From Spirochaetes bacterium GWE1_32_154 (GTDB lineage Bacteria > Spirochaetota > GWE2-31-10), in assembly GCA_001829315.1 (NCBI GenBank), contig MIAY01000015.1, positions 1 to 44,268 of the forward strand: a DNA stretch of 44,268 nt, written 5' to 3'. Each line of letters starts with the position of its first letter. Within the stretch, counting starts at the first letter, position 1. The translations under genes and the position numbers were made by a program. Positions 1,299 through 7,302 of the stretch are shown piece after piece. The notes beneath the pieces are model-generated. The model was not told where the DNA came from, ran no database searches, and saw only the letters and a program-made list of their open reading frames with translations.

Positions 1299-1500
1299 TC
1301 TTCGCAGGCACGGAAGCCGGCTCTTCGAAAAACCACCAGTCGCGACCAATTACAACTAACGCCTTGCCCATAAGAGATGTTTTTTTCTTTGCCGAAAAAG
1401 GCGCAATGCCAGGCAAAGAAAAAAATGTCCCCGAAGGGCGCAGTGAGGTACTCCGAACGGAGTCTTATGGGCTGTTAGTTTTCGTTGACCGCTGTAATAC
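1299..1500 (-). repeat. Junction element A (attC-like recombination site)
   Basis: In the cassette direction (minus strand) the element runs as follows. The end of the toxin-antitoxin cassette carries box AACTAAC (1474-1480). Stem GCCCATAAGA/TCTTATGGGC (1463-1472 with 1366-1375) encloses small hairpins and a long stem (1377-1393 with 1412-1428). The start box of the next cassette, GTTAGTT (1354-1360), follows, and then a conserved 45-base stretch ending in a hairpin with a TTCCGT loop (about 1304-1322). Box-to-box length is 127 bp, similar to long attC sites. Stem sequences differ from copies B and C but stay paired. Confidence 0.7.
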
Positions 1501-1511
1501 CAACCAGCTAA

Positions 1512-1523
1512 GCCACGGATGGC
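1512..1523 (-). other. Cassette-end hairpin, loop ATCCGT
   Basis: On the minus strand this is GCC ATCCGT GGC, about 20 bases after the toxin stop codon. The same loop occurs in hairpins at 4073-4088 (ATCCGT) and 2431-2446 (ATCCTT) and in the cassette-start hairpins (TTCCGT, GTCCGT). Confidence 0.5.
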
Positions 1524-1544
1524 GTTATAATATTATCTTAAAAA

Positions 1545-1823
1545 TCATAACTGCTTATACCCACTAATTACTGTCAAAATAGTAATAACACCATCATCAA
1601 TCTTATAAATAATTCTGTAACTTTTATAAATTAATTGTTTAATATCCGGTCTGTCATATTCTGGAACAATGCTGCCTAAATATGGAAAATCTTTTAATTT
1701 TCTTGTTAATGACCGTATTTTTCTAATTGTTTCTTTTGCATAAAACAATGAATCTTTAGAAATGTATTCGGCAATTAATTCTAATGAAATAATTGCCTTT
1801 TCTGACCATATTAATTTAACCAT
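1545..1823 (-). CDS. RelE/ParE-family toxin, 92 aa
   Basis: The length and pattern fit the RelE/ParE fold: an N-terminal WSEKAIISLELIAEYISKDS helix pair, the ...RKLKDFPYLGSIVPEYDRPD region, and the terminal strands YRIIYKIDDGVITILTVISG. The sequence KSYRIIYKI is typical of ParE-type toxins, which inhibit DNA gyrase; RelE-type members cleave ribosome-bound mRNA. Which target applies cannot be told from sequence. The start overlaps the antitoxin gene by 13 bases, as is usual for co-translated pairs. Flanked by junction elements A and B, it forms one cassette; toxin-antitoxin cassettes are common stabilisers of large integron arrays. Confidence 0.88.
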   Translation of the reverse strand: MVKLIWSEKAIISLELIAEYISKDSLFYAKETIRKIRSLTRKLKDFPYLGSIVPEYDRPDIKQLIYKSYRIIYKIDDGVITILTVISGYKQL

Positions 1824-1996
1824 TTAGATAATCTTTCATCCATTTGATTCTCTGTCAATAAATTACCATTTTGTATATCTTCAAGTCCATGTTCTATACT
1901 CTCTCGAACATAAAAACTGTACATTATATCTTCCCAATCATCGTTTTCTGAAAGATTATCTAAAATTTTTCGAGCTTCTTCTTTTACTGCTGACAT
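1811..1996 (-). CDS. Antitoxin of the ParE-type pair, 61 aa
   Basis: This is a small acidic protein directly upstream of, and overlapping, the toxin gene. It has no clear ribbon-helix-helix start, but its C-terminal half (EDIQNGNLLTENQMDERLSK) resembles the toxin-wrapping tail of short Phd/RelB-like antitoxins. Many cassette-borne ParE partners are this short. It has its own promoter (2014-2042) and a GGGAG ribosome binding site just before the ATG at 1996, so the cassette does not depend on an array promoter. The toxin-neutralising role is inferred from position and size. Confidence 0.8.
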   Translation of the reverse strand: MSAVKEEARKILDNLSENDDWEDIMYSFYVRESIEHGLEDIQNGNLLTENQMDERLSKWLN

Positions 1997-2013
1997 ACCT
2001 AACTCCCAGAATA

Positions 2014-2042
2014 ATATTACTCTAAAAATAAAATATCGTCAA
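2014..2042 (-). promoter_or_regulatory. Promoter of the toxin-antitoxin cassette
   Basis: On the minus strand TTGACG (2037-2042) is followed after 17 bases by TAATAT (2014-2019), 18 bases before the antitoxin start. The match to the vegetative consensus is good and well placed. Confidence 0.7.
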
Positions 2043-2213
2043 TTATTGTATAGTTAAACAGTCATAATATAATATCTCCAATTATCATATAAATTCATGC
2101 CGAAAAATCATTTTTGAAAAATAATAAAATTTTCAGACCTCATACTTTGTGATAAATACGAATACACACAATAATATAATTATTTTTCATAGAAAGGACG
2201 ACTGGTTATTCAT

Positions 2214-2420
2214 CTTCGCCGGCACGGAAGCCGGCTCTTCGAAAAACCACCAGTCGCGACCAATTACAACTAACGTTTTGCTCGTATCTGACGTTTTTTT
2301 CTTTGCCGAAAAGGCGGAGCGACAGCGAATGCCAGGCAAAGAAAAAAATGTGGCGTAGCCCAAGAACGGTACTCCGTTCGCAGCAGATACGAGCTGTTAC
2401 TTGGAGTTGGTCGCTGTAAT
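2214..2420 (-). repeat. Junction element B (attC-like recombination site)
   Basis: The architecture matches element A. The end box of cassette 2 is CAAGTAAC (2396-2403, with outer GCGACCAA at 2407-2414). Stem 2384-2394/2280-2290 (GCTCGTATCTG with its complement) encloses GAACGG/CCGTTC and a long ...CTTTGCC/GGCAAAG... stem (about 2291-2306 with 2335-2351). The start box of cassette 3 is GTTAGTT (2268-2274), and the TTCCGT-loop hairpin lies at about 2219-2236. The two outer boxes of this junction do not match each other perfectly, but each matches the far end of its own cassette. Confidence 0.72.
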
Positions 2421-2430
2421 ATCAAAAACA

Positions 2431-2446
2431 CCGGCAAGGATGCCGG
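2431..2446 (-). terminator. Hairpin plus T-run after the 2449-3027 gene
   Basis: On the minus strand CCGGC ATCCTT GCCGG is followed by TGTTTTTG, immediately after the stop codon. It could be a rho-independent terminator. It also carries the conserved cassette-end loop, so it may serve both purposes. Confidence 0.6.
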
Positions 2447-2448
2447 AA

Positions 2449-3027
2449 TTATATTCTTTTCTTTAACTTTTCAATACGTTTTTCCCAATCTCCAGACCAT
2501 CCTTCATTGTAAGCTATTTGACATAATTCTAATGATTCACTGATTTTTTTTTCTTTCTCATAAATTATAGCTAATTGTTCAAATCCAATATGTCTAGGTA
2601 AATTGCAAGAAGGTTGTTCATTCTTAAAGTAAATACTAGCTTCTTTAGATATTTCAATTTGTTTTTTACAATATTCAATTGCCTTTATATACGAATTATT
2701 ATTTTCTCTATCTTTATAATAGAATTCGATTAAAAAAAGATAGTAAAAATGTTTATCATTAATAGAAATATCAGAATCGTATAATTCTTCAGCTTTATAA
2801 ATAAATTTTCTTGCTATTTCTATGTCTTTTGTTGTTAAGAACCAAGTACTAAGATTTGCTAAGTAATAACAAGAACTTCGATTCAAAATGAAATTATTTC
2901 CCTCGATTAAATTTATTCCATATTTTTTTACAATATAACTCATCTCATTTTTATCAAATGTTGAAAACCACCAATCTGTAAGCTGAAAATGTCCAATTAA
3001 ACCTTCAATCTTCTTTTTAAATAACAT
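2449..3027 (-). CDS. TPR-like cassette protein, 192 aa
   Basis: The protein opens with HFQLTDWWFSTFDKNEMSYIV, a pattern I associate with a family of short bacterial tetratricopeptide-like proteins. Helix pairs follow, with TPR-like spacing (ARKFIYKAEELYDS; IEYCKKQIEISKEA; LAIIYEKEKKISESLELCQI), pointing to a protein-protein interaction scaffold. There is no signal peptide. It lies 13 bases downstream of the FN3 lipoprotein gene on the same strand, and both sit between junctions B and C. Cassette 2 is therefore a two-gene cassette, which is uncommon in integrons. Its partner and process are unknown. Confidence 0.7.
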   Translation of the reverse strand: MLFKKKIEGLIGHFQLTDWWFSTFDKNEMSYIVKKYGINLIEGNNFILNRSSCYYLANLSTWFLTTKDIEIARKFIYKAEELYDSDISINDKHFYYLFLIEFYYKDRENNNSYIKAIEYCKKQIEISKEASIYFKNEQPSCNLPRHIGFEQLAIIYEKEKKISESLELCQIAYNEGWSGDWEKRIEKLKKRI

Positions 3028-3040
3028 TTATTTTCCTTTA

Positions 3041-3721
3041 TCATTCATAAACATTTGTAAAAGTAACCTTAGTTTCATACCTATCGTACGCATCCAAACT
3101 ATTTAAATCATAAAAAGTAATACTATATGCAGCTTTACTACCGATAGGAAAATCTTCCATACTTAATGGATATGTAAAGTTAGTATCAACAATAATATCG
3201 TTTTTGTACATCGTATAAGTAACTTTAACAAAATTTGCAACGCAATTTCCAGTACTTTCAACTATTCCTGTAACTTTTAGAAAATTTAATGAGGTTAGTT
3301 CAAATTTCTCATCAGAAAGTTTAAACGAAGCATTTGGAATACTAACAGAAACTATATTTGAAAAATCACTTTCTATATCCAAATTGACAGAGGTTAATTT
3401 ATAATAATAAGCTTTACCAGCTTCAACATTCGTATCATAAGATGATGTAAAATATGTATATTCAAGGAATTGAAAATATTTATCATCATTCACAGATCTA
3501 TAAATATTATATTTACTAGCAACAGAAACACTATCCCACGATAAATTTACATCACCCCCATAAATACCACTACCAATTTCTGCTTTTAGATTTGAAGGTG
3601 CAGTAAGACTATCTTCAGATTTAGTAGTTTCCTTCTCTGCATCAGTTGTATCCAAAAAACCACATGAAGTAATGATAAGTAAAAATGAAAAAAGAACAAT
3701 AAAACGATTAAAATAACTCAT
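3041..3721 (-). CDS. Lipoprotein with a fibronectin type III domain, 226 aa
   Basis: Residues 1-20 form a signal peptide ending in a lipobox (LLIITSC, Cys20), so the protein should be membrane-anchored. Residues about 41-130 (TAPSNLKAEI...VNLSWDSV...YNIYRSVND...YYYKLTSVN...SDFSNIVSVSI) are a typical FN3 domain. The remaining 95 residues are beta-rich and resemble the small FxLYD-type domain of bacterial surface proteins (LNFLKVTGIVESTG, then IGSKAAYSITFYD). AGGAG precedes the ATG. It is the first gene of cassette 2. An adhesion or ligand-binding role is inferred from the domains only. Confidence 0.78.
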   Translation of the reverse strand: MSYFNRFIVLFSFLLIITSCGFLDTTDAEKETTKSEDSLTAPSNLKAEIGSGIYGGDVNLSWDSVSVASKYNIYRSVNDDKYFQFLEYTYFTSSYDTNVEAGKAYYYKLTSVNLDIESDFSNIVSVSIPNASFKLSDEKFELTSLNFLKVTGIVESTGNCVANFVKVTYTMYKNDIIVDTNFTYPLSMEDFPIGSKAAYSITFYDLNSLDAYDRYETKVTFTNVYE

Positions 3722-3849
3722 AAGATCTCCTAAAAAAATAATTTTCGTAACTTTACCAGAAACTGTGTGAAATATAGCTTCACATTAAATAGTATTTTCA
3801 CAAAACAAACAAAATATAATTATTTATAAAAGGAATTCTGTCAGTCTAT

Positions 3850-4060
3850 CTTCGCCGGCACGGAAGCCGGCTCTTCGAAAAACCACCAGTCGCGACCAAT
3901 TACAAGTAACGTCTCGGCCGTATCTCGACGTTTTTCTCTTTGCCGAAAAAGACGGAGCGACAGCGGATGTCAGGCAAAGAGAAAAATGTGGCGAAGCCCA
4001 AGAACGGTACTCCGTTCGCAGCAGATACGGGCTGTTATCGGCTGGGGCTGGGCTTTGTAA
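3850..4060 (-). repeat. Junction element C (attC-like recombination site)
   Basis: The end box of cassette 1 is GCCGATAAC (4034-4042), with the outer GCCCAGCCC tract to 4057. Stem 4023-4032/3916-3925 pairs with one mismatch and encloses the same inner hairpins as copy B. The start box of cassette 2 is GTTACTTG (3903-3910), with outer TTGGTCGC (3892-3899) and a TTCCGT-loop hairpin at about 3856-3871. The two outer boxes of this junction share only GTTA, while each is complementary to the far end of its own cassette. Confidence 0.72.
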
Positions 4061-4072
4061 TACCAAAGAACT

Positions 4073-4088
4073 GCGACACGGATGTCGC
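4073..4088 (-). other. Cassette-end hairpin, loop ATCCGT
   Basis: On the minus strand GCGAC ATCCGT GTCGC lies 12 bases after the stop of the 4101-6056 gene. The T-rich tail is weak (AGTTCTTT), so it may not terminate transcription. The loop is shared with the other cassette ends. Confidence 0.5.
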
Positions 4089-4100
4089 TTTTTAAAATTC

Positions 4101-6056
4101 TTACTTCTTTTTTCTTCGTGTTCTTGGTAAAATTAATTTATCAATTCGTTGAGATATTCTTATCATGTGATTGTTATAATATTCTAATGGAACAAAATAA
4201 AACGAATTGATGTCTATCTGATCATAATCATTAAAATAATATCTTTGATTTACAGTTTGAATTTGTCTTATTTTTCTATTAAGATAATTAATATATTTTT
4301 TTGATAAATTATGCTTTAATATGATATAAACATTTTTTTTAATAATACTATTAATTCTTTTATTATTAACAATATTTGAAATAAACAGTCCTTTTGATGA
4401 AGATACTAACAAGTCTTCGCTGTAATTATTGTATTTTATTATAGCTAAAAACATTTTTAGAATGGAGTATAACATTTTTTCAATTTTTTTATAATCAGAA
4501 CACTTTTGGAAAAAAGAAAAAATTGTTAAATAAATTTTTATGAATACTTTAATATATTCATTTTTTTCTTGTGGGGTAAAATACCATGCCCAGTAAATAT
4601 TAAAGAAAGAAGAAAATGAAATATCATCCAATAATAAATAAAGTTCAAATTCTATTTTATATAGTTGATCAAATATTCCTGAAACATGAGTTCCACCAAG
4701 GAAAATACGATTTATAAGAATATCTATTATTTCGTTTATTATTTTTATTCTGTTTAAGTTATTTATAATTTTAGTTTTGTCATCCTCCTGCATGACTAAT
4801 AAATTAAAAATAACCTTTCCCAATGTTTTGTCATTGTCATAGTTATTAGAAAAATGTGTTGTATAACTATCAAAAACTAGCATAGGGGCTAATAATTTAC
4901 GAGCATCGATGCTTTTCTGTATTTCAAATATTAATGATAAGATATCAAATTTGTTATGGTATATAGGATTAGATAAAATATTATAAGAAATAATATTTAT
5001 TGTCTTGTTAATCATAGATTTATTTAATGAATTATCTTTTGCATATATACTTTCTTTAATATTTGATAATCGAATAATAATAAATTCAATAGAATCTGAC
5101 AAATCAATTTTTTGTATAAATATATTTAAAATTGTTGAAAATTTATTTAGGTCATCAAAATATCTTTCAGGTTCTGTTAGTATGTTATCAAAAAAGAAAC
5201 TACAGAGTAATTTTATATATTCATTGTAATTAATATTGTGTTTTAAGTATTTTGTGTGTTTGTCAAACAAAGTATTTAAAAATAAATCATAGTAGATAAT
5301 ATTTAATGAACTACTTTTTAATTTTTGAATTATCTTTTTGGAGTTATCTAAGAAGTCAAGATAAAAATTATCGATATTAATATAATAATCATCAATATAT
5401 GAAAAATACATATCTAAACAATTAAAAAGACACATAACCCCCTTTTCATATGAGCCATATTGAGATTTTTCAATATTGTAATTGATTACTTCATATATAT
5501 TTTGGAATTTATAAATAAATACAACATGATACTGTTTAAAAATAGTACCTTTTTTAAAATTATCGGGTGCATCTTGAGACGAAATTGCATTTATTATGGT
5601 TTGCTTAAGTGTGCTATATTGATATAGTGGGTTCTTATTTAGTTTGCTGGTGGTTTTAATAAGATGTTTAATAGTATTTTGAATATCGTTTTCAATTAAA
5701 GGGCAGCATGTGTCATATATATCTAGTTGTTTTCTTGTTTTATTATAAAAAATATATGTGTTTATTAGTATTAAAACTAATATTAACGCCGAAATATACT
5801 CAAATATCTGATAATTTGGAATAAATATAAGAATTATTATTTGAAAAATACCAAGTATTAAATTAATAAGTAATGAATTATTTAGTTTTTTATTTTTAAT
5901 AATTATTTGATATAAATTACTAGATACTGATTCACTAATTCTTTGAAATGGGATAATTGCAAGAGAAATTAATAAAGCAACTACGGTAATAGATATTGAT
6001 ACGAGTTCAATTATTTTAGAATCACTGTTAATAACATTAAAAATATTCATATACAC
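4101..6056 (-). CDS. Unknown membrane-anchored protein, 651 aa, first cassette
   Basis: Three hydrophobic segments lie near the N-terminus (about residues 18-38, 62-82 and 86-108: SISITVVALLISLAIIPF, LLINLILGIFQIIILIFI, ISALILVLILINTYIF). They are followed by some 540 residues of Asn/Ile/Lys-rich, probably helical cytoplasmic sequence without a motif I recognise. No Walker, nuclease or protease motif is visible. It is very AT-rich even for this window. It occupies the position nearest the recombinase and is bounded by 24-base inverted ends (4034-4057, 6137-6160), so it is the most recently insertable cassette and is unusually large for one. Large membrane-anchored cassette proteins may act in phage defence, but that is speculation. 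Confidence 0.72.
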   Translation of the reverse strand: MYMNIFNVINSDSKIIELVSISITVVALLISLAIIPFQRISESVSSNLYQIIIKNKKLNNSLLINLILGIFQIIILIFIPNYQIFEYISALILVLILINTYIFYNKTRKQLDIYDTCCPLIENDIQNTIKHLIKTTSKLNKNPLYQYSTLKQTIINAISSQDAPDNFKKGTIFKQYHVVFIYKFQNIYEVINYNIEKSQYGSYEKGVMCLFNCLDMYFSYIDDYYINIDNFYLDFLDNSKKIIQKLKSSSLNIIYYDLFLNTLFDKHTKYLKHNINYNEYIKLLCSFFFDNILTEPERYFDDLNKFSTILNIFIQKIDLSDSIEFIIIRLSNIKESIYAKDNSLNKSMINKTINIISYNILSNPIYHNKFDILSLIFEIQKSIDARKLLAPMLVFDSYTTHFSNNYDNDKTLGKVIFNLLVMQEDDKTKIINNLNRIKIINEIIDILINRIFLGGTHVSGIFDQLYKIEFELYLLLDDISFSSFFNIYWAWYFTPQEKNEYIKVFIKIYLTIFSFFQKCSDYKKIEKMLYSILKMFLAIIKYNNYSEDLLVSSSKGLFISNIVNNKRINSIIKKNVYIILKHNLSKKYINYLNRKIRQIQTVNQRYYFNDYDQIDINSFYFVPLEYYNNHMIRISQRIDKLILPRTRRKKK

Positions 6057-6099
6057 CTTTATTTAACAAATAAAGTAACATATTTTTTTTATATATTTT

Positions 6100-6160
6100 G
6101 CCCGCACGGACGCGGGCTCTTCTTACAGGAACCAGCCCAAGCCCAGCCCTTGCCGATAAC
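6100..6160 (-). repeat. Start half of cassette 1 (boundary with attI-like region)
   Basis: In the cassette direction GTTATCGGC (6152-6160) is followed by AAGGGCTGGGCTT, which matches the reverse complement of the cassette's own far end at 4034-4057 at 22 of 24 bases. Then comes GAAGAG and a hairpin GCCCGC GTCCGT GCGGGC (6100-6117). The hairpin corresponds to GCCGGC TTCCGT GCCGGC in the other cassettes, with paired (compensatory) changes. No central palindrome lies on its upstream side, as expected where a cassette abuts an attI. Confidence 0.7.
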
Positions 6161-6504
6161 TCAAAATATGTGTATTTCGCTTTACGCTACATACTATAAT
6201 CTACAATAAATAATTAATCAACACCAAATCATACAAACAGTAATTAATCGCATTATTTCCTCATAACTCTACAATAAACATCAATTTACATAAACCAGAC
6301 AGAATTACACAATATATGACAAATACTCATACAAGGTGAACTTCGCTTTTTGCCCCGCAGTTGTAAGGTAAATCACAAACTACAACACAACACAAAATAA
6401 AAAAATAAAATACAAAAAATATTCAAAAAACCCCGTTGAAAAAACACAAATTCAGCATTTAATAAAAAGAAACCTAACATCCCGCAAAGAAAAGGAATAA
6501 AAAA
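6161..6504. other. Candidate attI/leader region between array and recombinase
   Basis: This is 344 bases without a gene, between the first cassette and the recombinase start. It holds a promoter towards the array (6193-6221) and an imperfect direct repeat about 69 bases apart (6199-6223 and 6268-6290, both with TCTACAATAAA). TTCGCTTT occurs twice, near 6175 and 6344. Directly repeated recombinase binding sites are expected in an attI; whether these are such sites is an inference. No RNA structure was recognised. Confidence 0.45.
6193..6221 (-). promoter_or_regulatory. Candidate cassette promoter (Pc)
   Basis: On the minus strand TTGATT (6216-6221) is followed after 17 bases by TATAGT (6193-6198). 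It points away from the recombinase gene into cassette 1, 33 bases upstream of the GTTA box, which is the position and direction of an integron Pc. Confidence 0.6.
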
Positions 6505-7302
6505 ATGGACAATCATCTCACACAGTTTAATCAATTATTAAAAATAAAAAACTATTCCAGACGAACAATAAGTATCTACACGACAAATCTAAAGCGATTT
6601 CTTGAATATGCAGACAATACCGATTACGCGCCTGAACTACGAATTATCAAATTCCTAAATACAATAGAATCTGAAGAAATAAGACGTAATTCCTATAATG
6701 CAATTCAATTATTCTACAAACTTGTATTAAAAAAATCATGCCCATATATTTTGAAAATGGTAAAAACAAGAAAACGTCTTCCTCAGGTATTAACAAAAAA
6801 AGAAGTAGAATTGATAATTTCTAAAATCACTAATATAAAACATACACTCATGATATCGATGATGTATGGTAGCGGATTACGGGTTAGTGAAGTTGTAAAT
6901 ATCAGAGTCGCTCATGTTGATATTGAAAATTTACTATTAAATATAAAAAATTCAAAAAACAAAAAGGATCGCATAACGCCACTATCACAGAAATTAAAAA
7001 ACGACTTATCTTCTATTATAAATGAAAGATCAGGAAAAGAATTTCTTTTTAAAACAATACAGAATAATAAATATACAATAAGAACTGTTCAAAAAGTTTT
7101 TGAAAATGCTTTTAAAAAGTCAGGTATTACAAAAAACGCGACCTGTCATACTCTAAGACATTCTTTTGCAACCCATCTGCTTGAAAACGGAATCGATATT
7201 CGGTCTATTCAGAAAATACTTGGACATGCCTCAGTAAAAACGACAATGATTTATTTACATGTCGCTGAATGTACTATAAAAAAAGTTGAAAGCCCTTTAT
7301 AA
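6505..7302 (+). CDS. Tyrosine recombinase, integron-integrase-like but without the IntI insert, 265 aa
   Basis: This is a DNA strand-exchange enzyme of the Xer/IntI type. The N-terminal SAM-like core-binding domain spans about residues 1-85 and the catalytic domain 95-265. Catalytic residues are visible: Arg126 in YGSGLRVSE, a Lys near 151-154, His215-x-x-Arg218 in CHTLRHSFATHLL, His241 in LGHASVKTT, and nucleophile Tyr250 in TMIYLHV. The tail KKVESPL resembles that of IntI proteins. The stretch of about 35 residues between boxes I and II that distinguishes IntI (ALxRKYPxA...) is absent, making it 60-70 residues shorter than IntI1. AAAGGA precedes the ATG. It is divergent from the array and is the likely cassette recombinase. 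Confidence 0.85.
   Translation: MDNHLTQFNQLLKIKNYSRRTISIYTTNLKRFLEYADNTDYAPELRIIKFLNTIESEEIRRNSYNAIQLFYKLVLKKSCPYILKMVKTRKRLPQVLTKKEVELIISKITNIKHTLMISMMYGSGLRVSEVVNIRVAHVDIENLLLNIKNSKNKKDRITPLSQKLKNDLSSIINERSGKEFLFKTIQNNKYTIRTVQKVFENAFKKSGITKNATCHTLRHSFATHLLENGIDIRSIQKILGHASVKTTMIYLHVAECTIKKVESPL

Follow-up and report, generated by a model that had tools for sequence, protein, structure and literature searches.

Integrons have been described as stores of anti-phage genes, which are expressed when they stand first in the array (PMC12409362), and the same account questions whether integron defence cassettes benefit their pandemic host. Chromosomal integrons are described in Treponema (PMC3607928), and integron integrases are reported to have acquired single-strand recombination via the I2 helix (PMC7790495). 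Defence genes, for example DarTG2, are likewise documented between hsdS and hsdR (PMC12255303). Here we analyse a stretch of 44,268 nucleotides from Spirochaetes bacterium GWE1_32_154 (contig MIAY01000015.1, hereafter the window), in which the first cassette of an integron-like array carries the gene of a large membrane protein. We tentatively propose, at slightly under an even chance, that this candidate is an accessory, abortive-infection-type defence protein anchored in the membrane, belonging to a spirochaete family that lacks a model in the libraries searched and moves as a cassette.

The gene occupies positions 4101–6056 of the minus strand, where an uninterrupted frame of 651 codons was listed in the preliminary description and is confirmed here; the plus strand across the same positions is crowded with stops. 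In 300 shuffles of this DNA the longest stop-free run is 129 codons, and this maximum, together with two full-length homologues, identifies the frame as a genuine gene. The listed GTG start is buried in a Shine-Dalgarno-like AAAGGTG. For this reason we prefer the ATG at 6050, two codons downstream, as the likely true start, which would give a protein of 649 residues. The gene is single-copy within its own genome and has a GC content of 21%, compared with 27% for the first 6.1 kb and 32% for the whole window. Promoter-like sites in 5950–6560 number three, against 3.0 expected by chance.

Three attC-like repeats set cassette boundaries at 6160, 3910, 2274 and 1360. The boundary GTTA at 6160 and 3910 flanks the cassette of the gene, which is the first after a recombinase gene, as expected from the insertion-proximal position assigned to it earlier. 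This first cassette (3911–6160, minus strand, 2250 bp), delimited by its boundaries and by arm complementarity, starts at GTTATCGGC and ends with its own attC-like site (3911–4040, minus strand), which is recognised by repeat family and arm pairing and has an R'' box ending at 4034. The attI-side junction GTTATCGGCAAGGGCTGGGCTT (6139–6160, minus strand) is 91% complementary to 4034–4055. A second cassette of 1636 bp (2275–3910, minus strand) contains ORFs at 3041–3721 and 2449–3027, a third of 914 bp (1361–2274, minus strand) contains a ParE-type toxin gene (1545–1823; Pfam E = 1.6e-13), and a fourth continues past the contig end. The first cassette is 1.4 and 2.5 times as long as the second and third, respectively, and not four times the usual size as had been claimed.

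A 5' end that matches its own R'' side marks cassettes that have circularised. For cassette 1 the pairing with its own arm reaches –39.6 kcal/mol, compared with –15.0 kcal/mol with any of the other three, and for cassette 2 it reaches –23.4 compared with –15.0, –19.8 and –19.8 kcal/mol. For cassette 3 the value of –15.7 kcal/mol is tied with that for cassette 4 (the two share their 5' sequence), compared with –11.6 and –12.0 for the others. Because these 5' ends pair with their own R'' side as well as or better than with others, and the 5' end of the first cassette complements the R'' box at the cassette's other end, as in integron cassettes, we conclude that the gene lies in a cassette. By eye, a conserved GC-rich hairpin of the GCCGGC..GCCGGC type follows soon after the core site at each cassette start, and all three attC-like sites are preceded by a short hairpin, with the loop TCCG in two and TCCT in one; hairpins of these cassette starts and pre-attC sites lie at 1294–1320, 2208–2240, 3844–3875 and 6100–6117. 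One of the second-cassette ORFs weakly matches the phage family phrog_22434, which has no assigned function (E = 3.3e-5), and the other, by eye a probable lipoprotein, weakly matches phage tail proteins (E = 3e-5). Isolated fragments of the attC-like repeat of the array occur elsewhere in the genome, on contigs C12, C42 and C17 (L024 10048–10224 and 11264–11333, L026 8304–8341, L027 5376–5409).

The ParE toxin cassette in the same array brings in the reading that the gene stabilises its cassette by addiction, or is otherwise selfish, and gives no anti-phage benefit. Stabilising toxin–antitoxin cassettes are known from integrons. We nevertheless consider this reading highly improbable: the usual toxins are far smaller than a protein of 649–651 residues, and the only other ORF of at least 80 codons in the cassette is an 80-codon frame (3824–4066) that runs over the attC-like site.

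The recombinase gene next to the array (6505–7302, plus strand) is divergent from the cassettes and encodes a tyrosine recombinase of 265 residues. With 192.3 bits on TIGR02249, the integron-integrase model (cut-off 265), and 205.6 bits on a XerA-like model (cut-off 220), the protein passes neither. In our alignment the canonical IntI of the same genome carries an insertion, which we infer to be the I2 helix, opposite a gap of about 30 residues in the window recombinase, and the 11 other aligned rows from the phylum also lack this insertion. The integron setting of the preliminary description thus stands as far as the attC-like cassettes are concerned, but the adjacent recombinase falls outside the canonical integron integrases, having neither the IntI insertion nor a score over the TIGR02249 cut-off.

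Relatives of this recombinase at E ≤ 1e-40 are present in 11 of 60 genomes, its own included. In genome G006, which holds the sole relative among recombinase-bearing genomes whose flanks were inspected, the protein is 53% identical, and this genome belongs to the same taxonomic order as that of the window. The same GTTATCGGC junction adjoins the gene there, together with an R'' arm that matches it, with an own-arm pairing of –39.9 kcal/mol compared with –28.4 kcal/mol with the window's end. A relative on contig C43 is decayed; its leader is similar, and a single attC-like site accompanies it. An insertion-less recombinase therefore accompanies attC-like cassettes, or what is left of them, in three places, the window (contig C15), C43 and G006 (window 6505–7302, L032 1–620 and L023 9357–10430), possibly as an integron-like system run by a different recombinase. 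The genome of the window also has a true IntI, on contig C2 (398.7 bits). This canonical region (L021 15445–16365 and L022 1–7910) contains two 188-nt attC-like repeats adjoining the IntI gene (L022 2336–2523 and 3756–3943), and between and beside them are genes for a KAP-family NTPase, an ion channel and an N6 DNA methylase. BLAST finds no match between these 188-nt repeats and the repeats of the window.

A search of 392 genomes of the phylum Spirochaetota with the window protein (E ≤ 0.05) returns ten, namely its own, G164 and eight that were discarded as noise (E 0.0025–0.032, 13.4–17 bits, short stretches). The homologue in G164, a genome that is probably that of Treponema denticola ATCC 35405, is full-length and 38% identical over residues 6–648 (E = 1.5e-134). 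An earlier set of 149 genomes gave the gene itself and three matches discarded as noise (E 0.0025–0.0093). With a profile of the window and G164 proteins, two of 274 genomes in the family of G164 match at E ≤ 0.001, G164 and G482, the latter with E = 9.1e-97. A profile of all three members against 354 genomes of the phylum (E ≤ 0.01) finds the window's own genome, G164 and one match discarded as noise (E = 0.0076). These samples of 149, 392, 274 and 354 genomes overlap. Exact-peptide scans of genome and viral collections for close relatives of the window protein gave nothing, and tblastn of plasmid and phage records at E ≤ 1 gave no relative, which we counted against a defence function. Plasmids and phages gave no match to the G164 homologue, plasmids none to the G482 homologue, and profile scans of viral contigs returned nothing. 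In the sampled genomes the family appears rare and scattered, as would be expected of mobile accessory genes.

The G164 homologue stands alone in a cassette of 2112 bp, which adjoins seven 39-nt attC-like repeats spaced 0.7–1.5 kb apart. This cassette pairs with its own arm at –9.5 kcal/mol and with the window's end at –5.8 kcal/mol, which differ little. About 18 kb from the homologue, a protein matches bSEFIR in PADLOC (E = 2.3e-81); six other G164 proteins scanned, the homologue among them, have no PADLOC match at E ≤ 0.01. The G482 homologue is encoded on a contig of 5112 bp in the order winged-helix protein, hsdS, homologue, 64-codon ORF and hsdR, and begins 5 nt after hsdS if the first ATG is assumed. 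The hsdS product matches Methylase_S (E = 4.1e-12) and PADLOC Specificity_I (7.8e-40), and the hsdR product, truncated by the contig end, matches HSDR_N (E = 4.6e-39) and PADLOC REase_I (E = 5.9e-121). An operon is only presumed here, as the contig spans 5.1 kb, hsdR is cut, hsdM is absent from the contig and the 64-codon ORF precedes hsdR. The preliminary description had suggested looking for homologues in defence islands; a neighbourhood of restriction–modification (R-M) genes is found for one of the three members (G482), and the other two are cassettes.

The position between hsdS and hsdR would also be taken by a partner of type I R-M that regulates or assists it at the membrane and is not an independent defence protein. 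Against this, the members in the window and in G164 each stand alone in a cassette, and no hsd gene is present among the nine window proteins or the six G164 neighbours scanned, which are a subset of the neighbours; a different contig of the window's genome does carry an N6 methylase gene. We regard such a partnership as very unlikely. For the accessory defence protein that we prefer, independent support comes from the G482 homologue between hsdS and hsdR and from the G164 homologue, which is also a cassette.

Hydropathy predicts three transmembrane helices near the N-terminus of the window protein, at residues 18–36 (5949–6005), 61–79 (5820–5876) and 84–102 (5751–5807, all minus strand), in agreement with the three noted before. 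The hydrophobic segments have counterparts in both homologues, so that the N-terminal three-helix pattern is common to all three members. Directly after the first helix, the alignment of the members contains a conserved positive loop, PFQ[RK]xSxxxS, in which K and R number 4, 4 and 5 and D and E number 1, 1 and 1; over the first helix and this loop, 34 of 46 residues are identical between the window and G164 proteins. According to the positive-inside rule, positively charged loops are on the cytosolic side. Based on this rule and the loop charge we place the loop and the large part of the protein in the cytosol. The large soluble part (residues 111–651; 4104–5726, minus strand) is predicted to be cytosolic from the charges flanking the helices and mostly helical from low-confidence all-helix models. 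Weaker hydrophobic peaks are seen in G164 at 501 and 546 and in G482 at 303, and have no counterpart in the window protein at the same hydropathy threshold.

Conservation is high in residues 176–240, where 21 of 65 positions are invariant across the three members, and a GG[TS]HxxGIxxQxY block is strongly conserved. Residues 481–651 are the least conserved (11 invariant), setting aside the first 14 residues (1 invariant). The family contains no recognised catalytic, nucleotide-binding or pore motif, which we counted against the defence reading. The single-sequence AlphaFold2 model of the whole protein is all helix and unusable (pLDDT 41.2, pTM 0.32). Residues 140–400 also give an all-helix model (pLDDT 60.3), for which Foldseek returns no PDB match at E ≤ 0.001. 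VIA-align of the same residues reaches Z scores of up to 14.6, with designed helical repeats in the lead, followed by PCI and HEAT-like proteins; this level is usual for helical models according to the tool and adds just that the region is a helical array.

No curated domain is found in the window protein, in line with the original statement that it has no known motif. At E ≤ 1, Pfam gives DUF2254 (E = 0.044), YTH (0.1) and DUF7589 (0.22), all sub-threshold, and PADLOC, NCBIfam and PHROGs give no match. The models of PADLOC 2.0.0 assign none of the three members to a family (window at E ≤ 1, G164 and G482 at E ≤ 0.01). A sequence search of the PDB finds no match to the window protein; a PDB match of the family profile (E = 0.51) is at chance level, and one Rfam match of 34 bits is far too low for a gathering score of 99. 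The family has no model in the libraries searched, and we call it undescribed on that basis and not from a complete survey of the literature.

The Pfam result suggests a different reading, in which the protein is a DUF2254-like membrane protein for ion balance or envelope physiology, captured by chance and unrelated to phages. DUF2254 (PF10011) is the best Pfam match for two of the three members (E = 0.044 for the window, 0.066 for G164), and the register agrees, residues 18–129 of the window protein aligning to profile positions 52–167 and residues 17–134 of G164 to 52–168. However, the scores are 13.0 and 12.4 bits against a curated cut-off of 28.8 and G482 has no match, so that none of the three is a member by score. 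When the family is compared by hhalign with a profile of seven DUF2254 proteins together with L045 and L046, the score is 40.8 (probability 32%). None of 100 block shuffles reaches this value (best 32.05), nor do two reversed decoys (23.6 and 23.4). With L045 and L046 left out, the score falls to 23.2, the decoy level. The DUF2254 profile matched 143 plasmid records; among the 12 listed, six were taken and five used, the unannotated two-piece H1 being dropped. L045 (1447–3396) and L046 (481–2058) are proteins from spirochaetes in which the DUF2254 module scores above the cut-off and is joined to a long C-terminal part of a different kind. With 29% identity between them they may form a DUF2254 subfamily, and a scan of genome contigs with both recovered the record of the query itself and a relative at 29%, which is probably the L046 record. 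A single BLASTP comparison of the window protein with L045 gave E = 0.018, which we rejected as proof of kinship, and that with L046 gave nothing useful. The remote-homology search proposed earlier thus yields two homologues and a sub-threshold DUF2254 likeness, and no family above a cut-off. It is possible that a distant common membrane module is shared with DUF2254, and we do not claim membership. The likeness is confined to the membrane module and leaves the hsdS–hsdR position unexplained, and we rate the physiological reading as unlikely. Passages of a paper that mentions DUF2254 concern knots and assign no function.

The suggestion that the protein is a defence or envelope effector gains from one homologue between hsdS and hsdR and another in a cassette, and is weakened by the lack of a PADLOC model. 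For defence we counted the hsdS–hsdR slot, the G164 cassette, the described role of integrons as stores of anti-phage genes, the ParE cassette, the three-helix pattern with the conserved blocks, and the all-helix models. Against it we counted the R-M neighbourhood in one of three members, the lack of a PADLOC model, the low pLDDT values (41 and 60), the chance-level promoters, the published question about the benefit of integron defence cassettes to their pandemic host, and the weak DUF2254 likeness, which could indicate ordinary membrane physiology. The context is independent but thin, with one R-M neighbourhood, and makes defence plausible by location and not by function. An accessory defence protein of this kind would have its N-terminus outside and its large part inside the cell, where a helical-repeat (solenoid) domain might sense a phage component. 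Upon sensing, the membrane module would assemble and damage or depolarise the inner membrane, so that the infected cell would cease to support the phage. The first-cassette position would favour expression.

If the protein is protective, the known defence families gain one that no profile of the searched libraries covers, and this suggests that spirochaete integrons act as stores of defence genes. The three divergent members, one of them beside R-M genes, provide a ready test set. The insertion-less recombinase raises the question of whether attC-like cassettes can be mobile without a canonical integron integrase. In a broader and unlikely scenario, spirochaete-specific membrane-anchored defence effectors circulate in canonical integrons and also in cassettes moved by a small tyrosine recombinase, which lacks the insertion that lets integron integrases recombine folded attC sites; the window would then hold a new defence protein together with an integron-like system that uses another recombinase.

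Compared with DUF2254, the likeness is weak, in the same register and limited to the membrane module of the window and G164 members, whereas all three members are below the cut-off or without a match. The G482 homologue occupies the same slot as the DarTG2-type genes described as embedded in type I R-M operons (PMC12255303); unlike these, the family has no recognised enzymatic motif and is a candidate by position. As with the anti-phage cassettes reported from sedentary chromosomal integrons (Darracq et al. 2025, as cited in PMC12409362), the window has a single-gene cassette in first position, whereas its gene has no PADLOC match and its recombinase differs from canonical integron integrases. 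G164, probably T. denticola, carries its 38% identical homologue as a cassette, which makes a link to the chromosomal integron described for Treponema (PMC3607928), in which the integrase is transcribed toward attI and the array, whereas the recombinase of the window is divergent from its cassettes.
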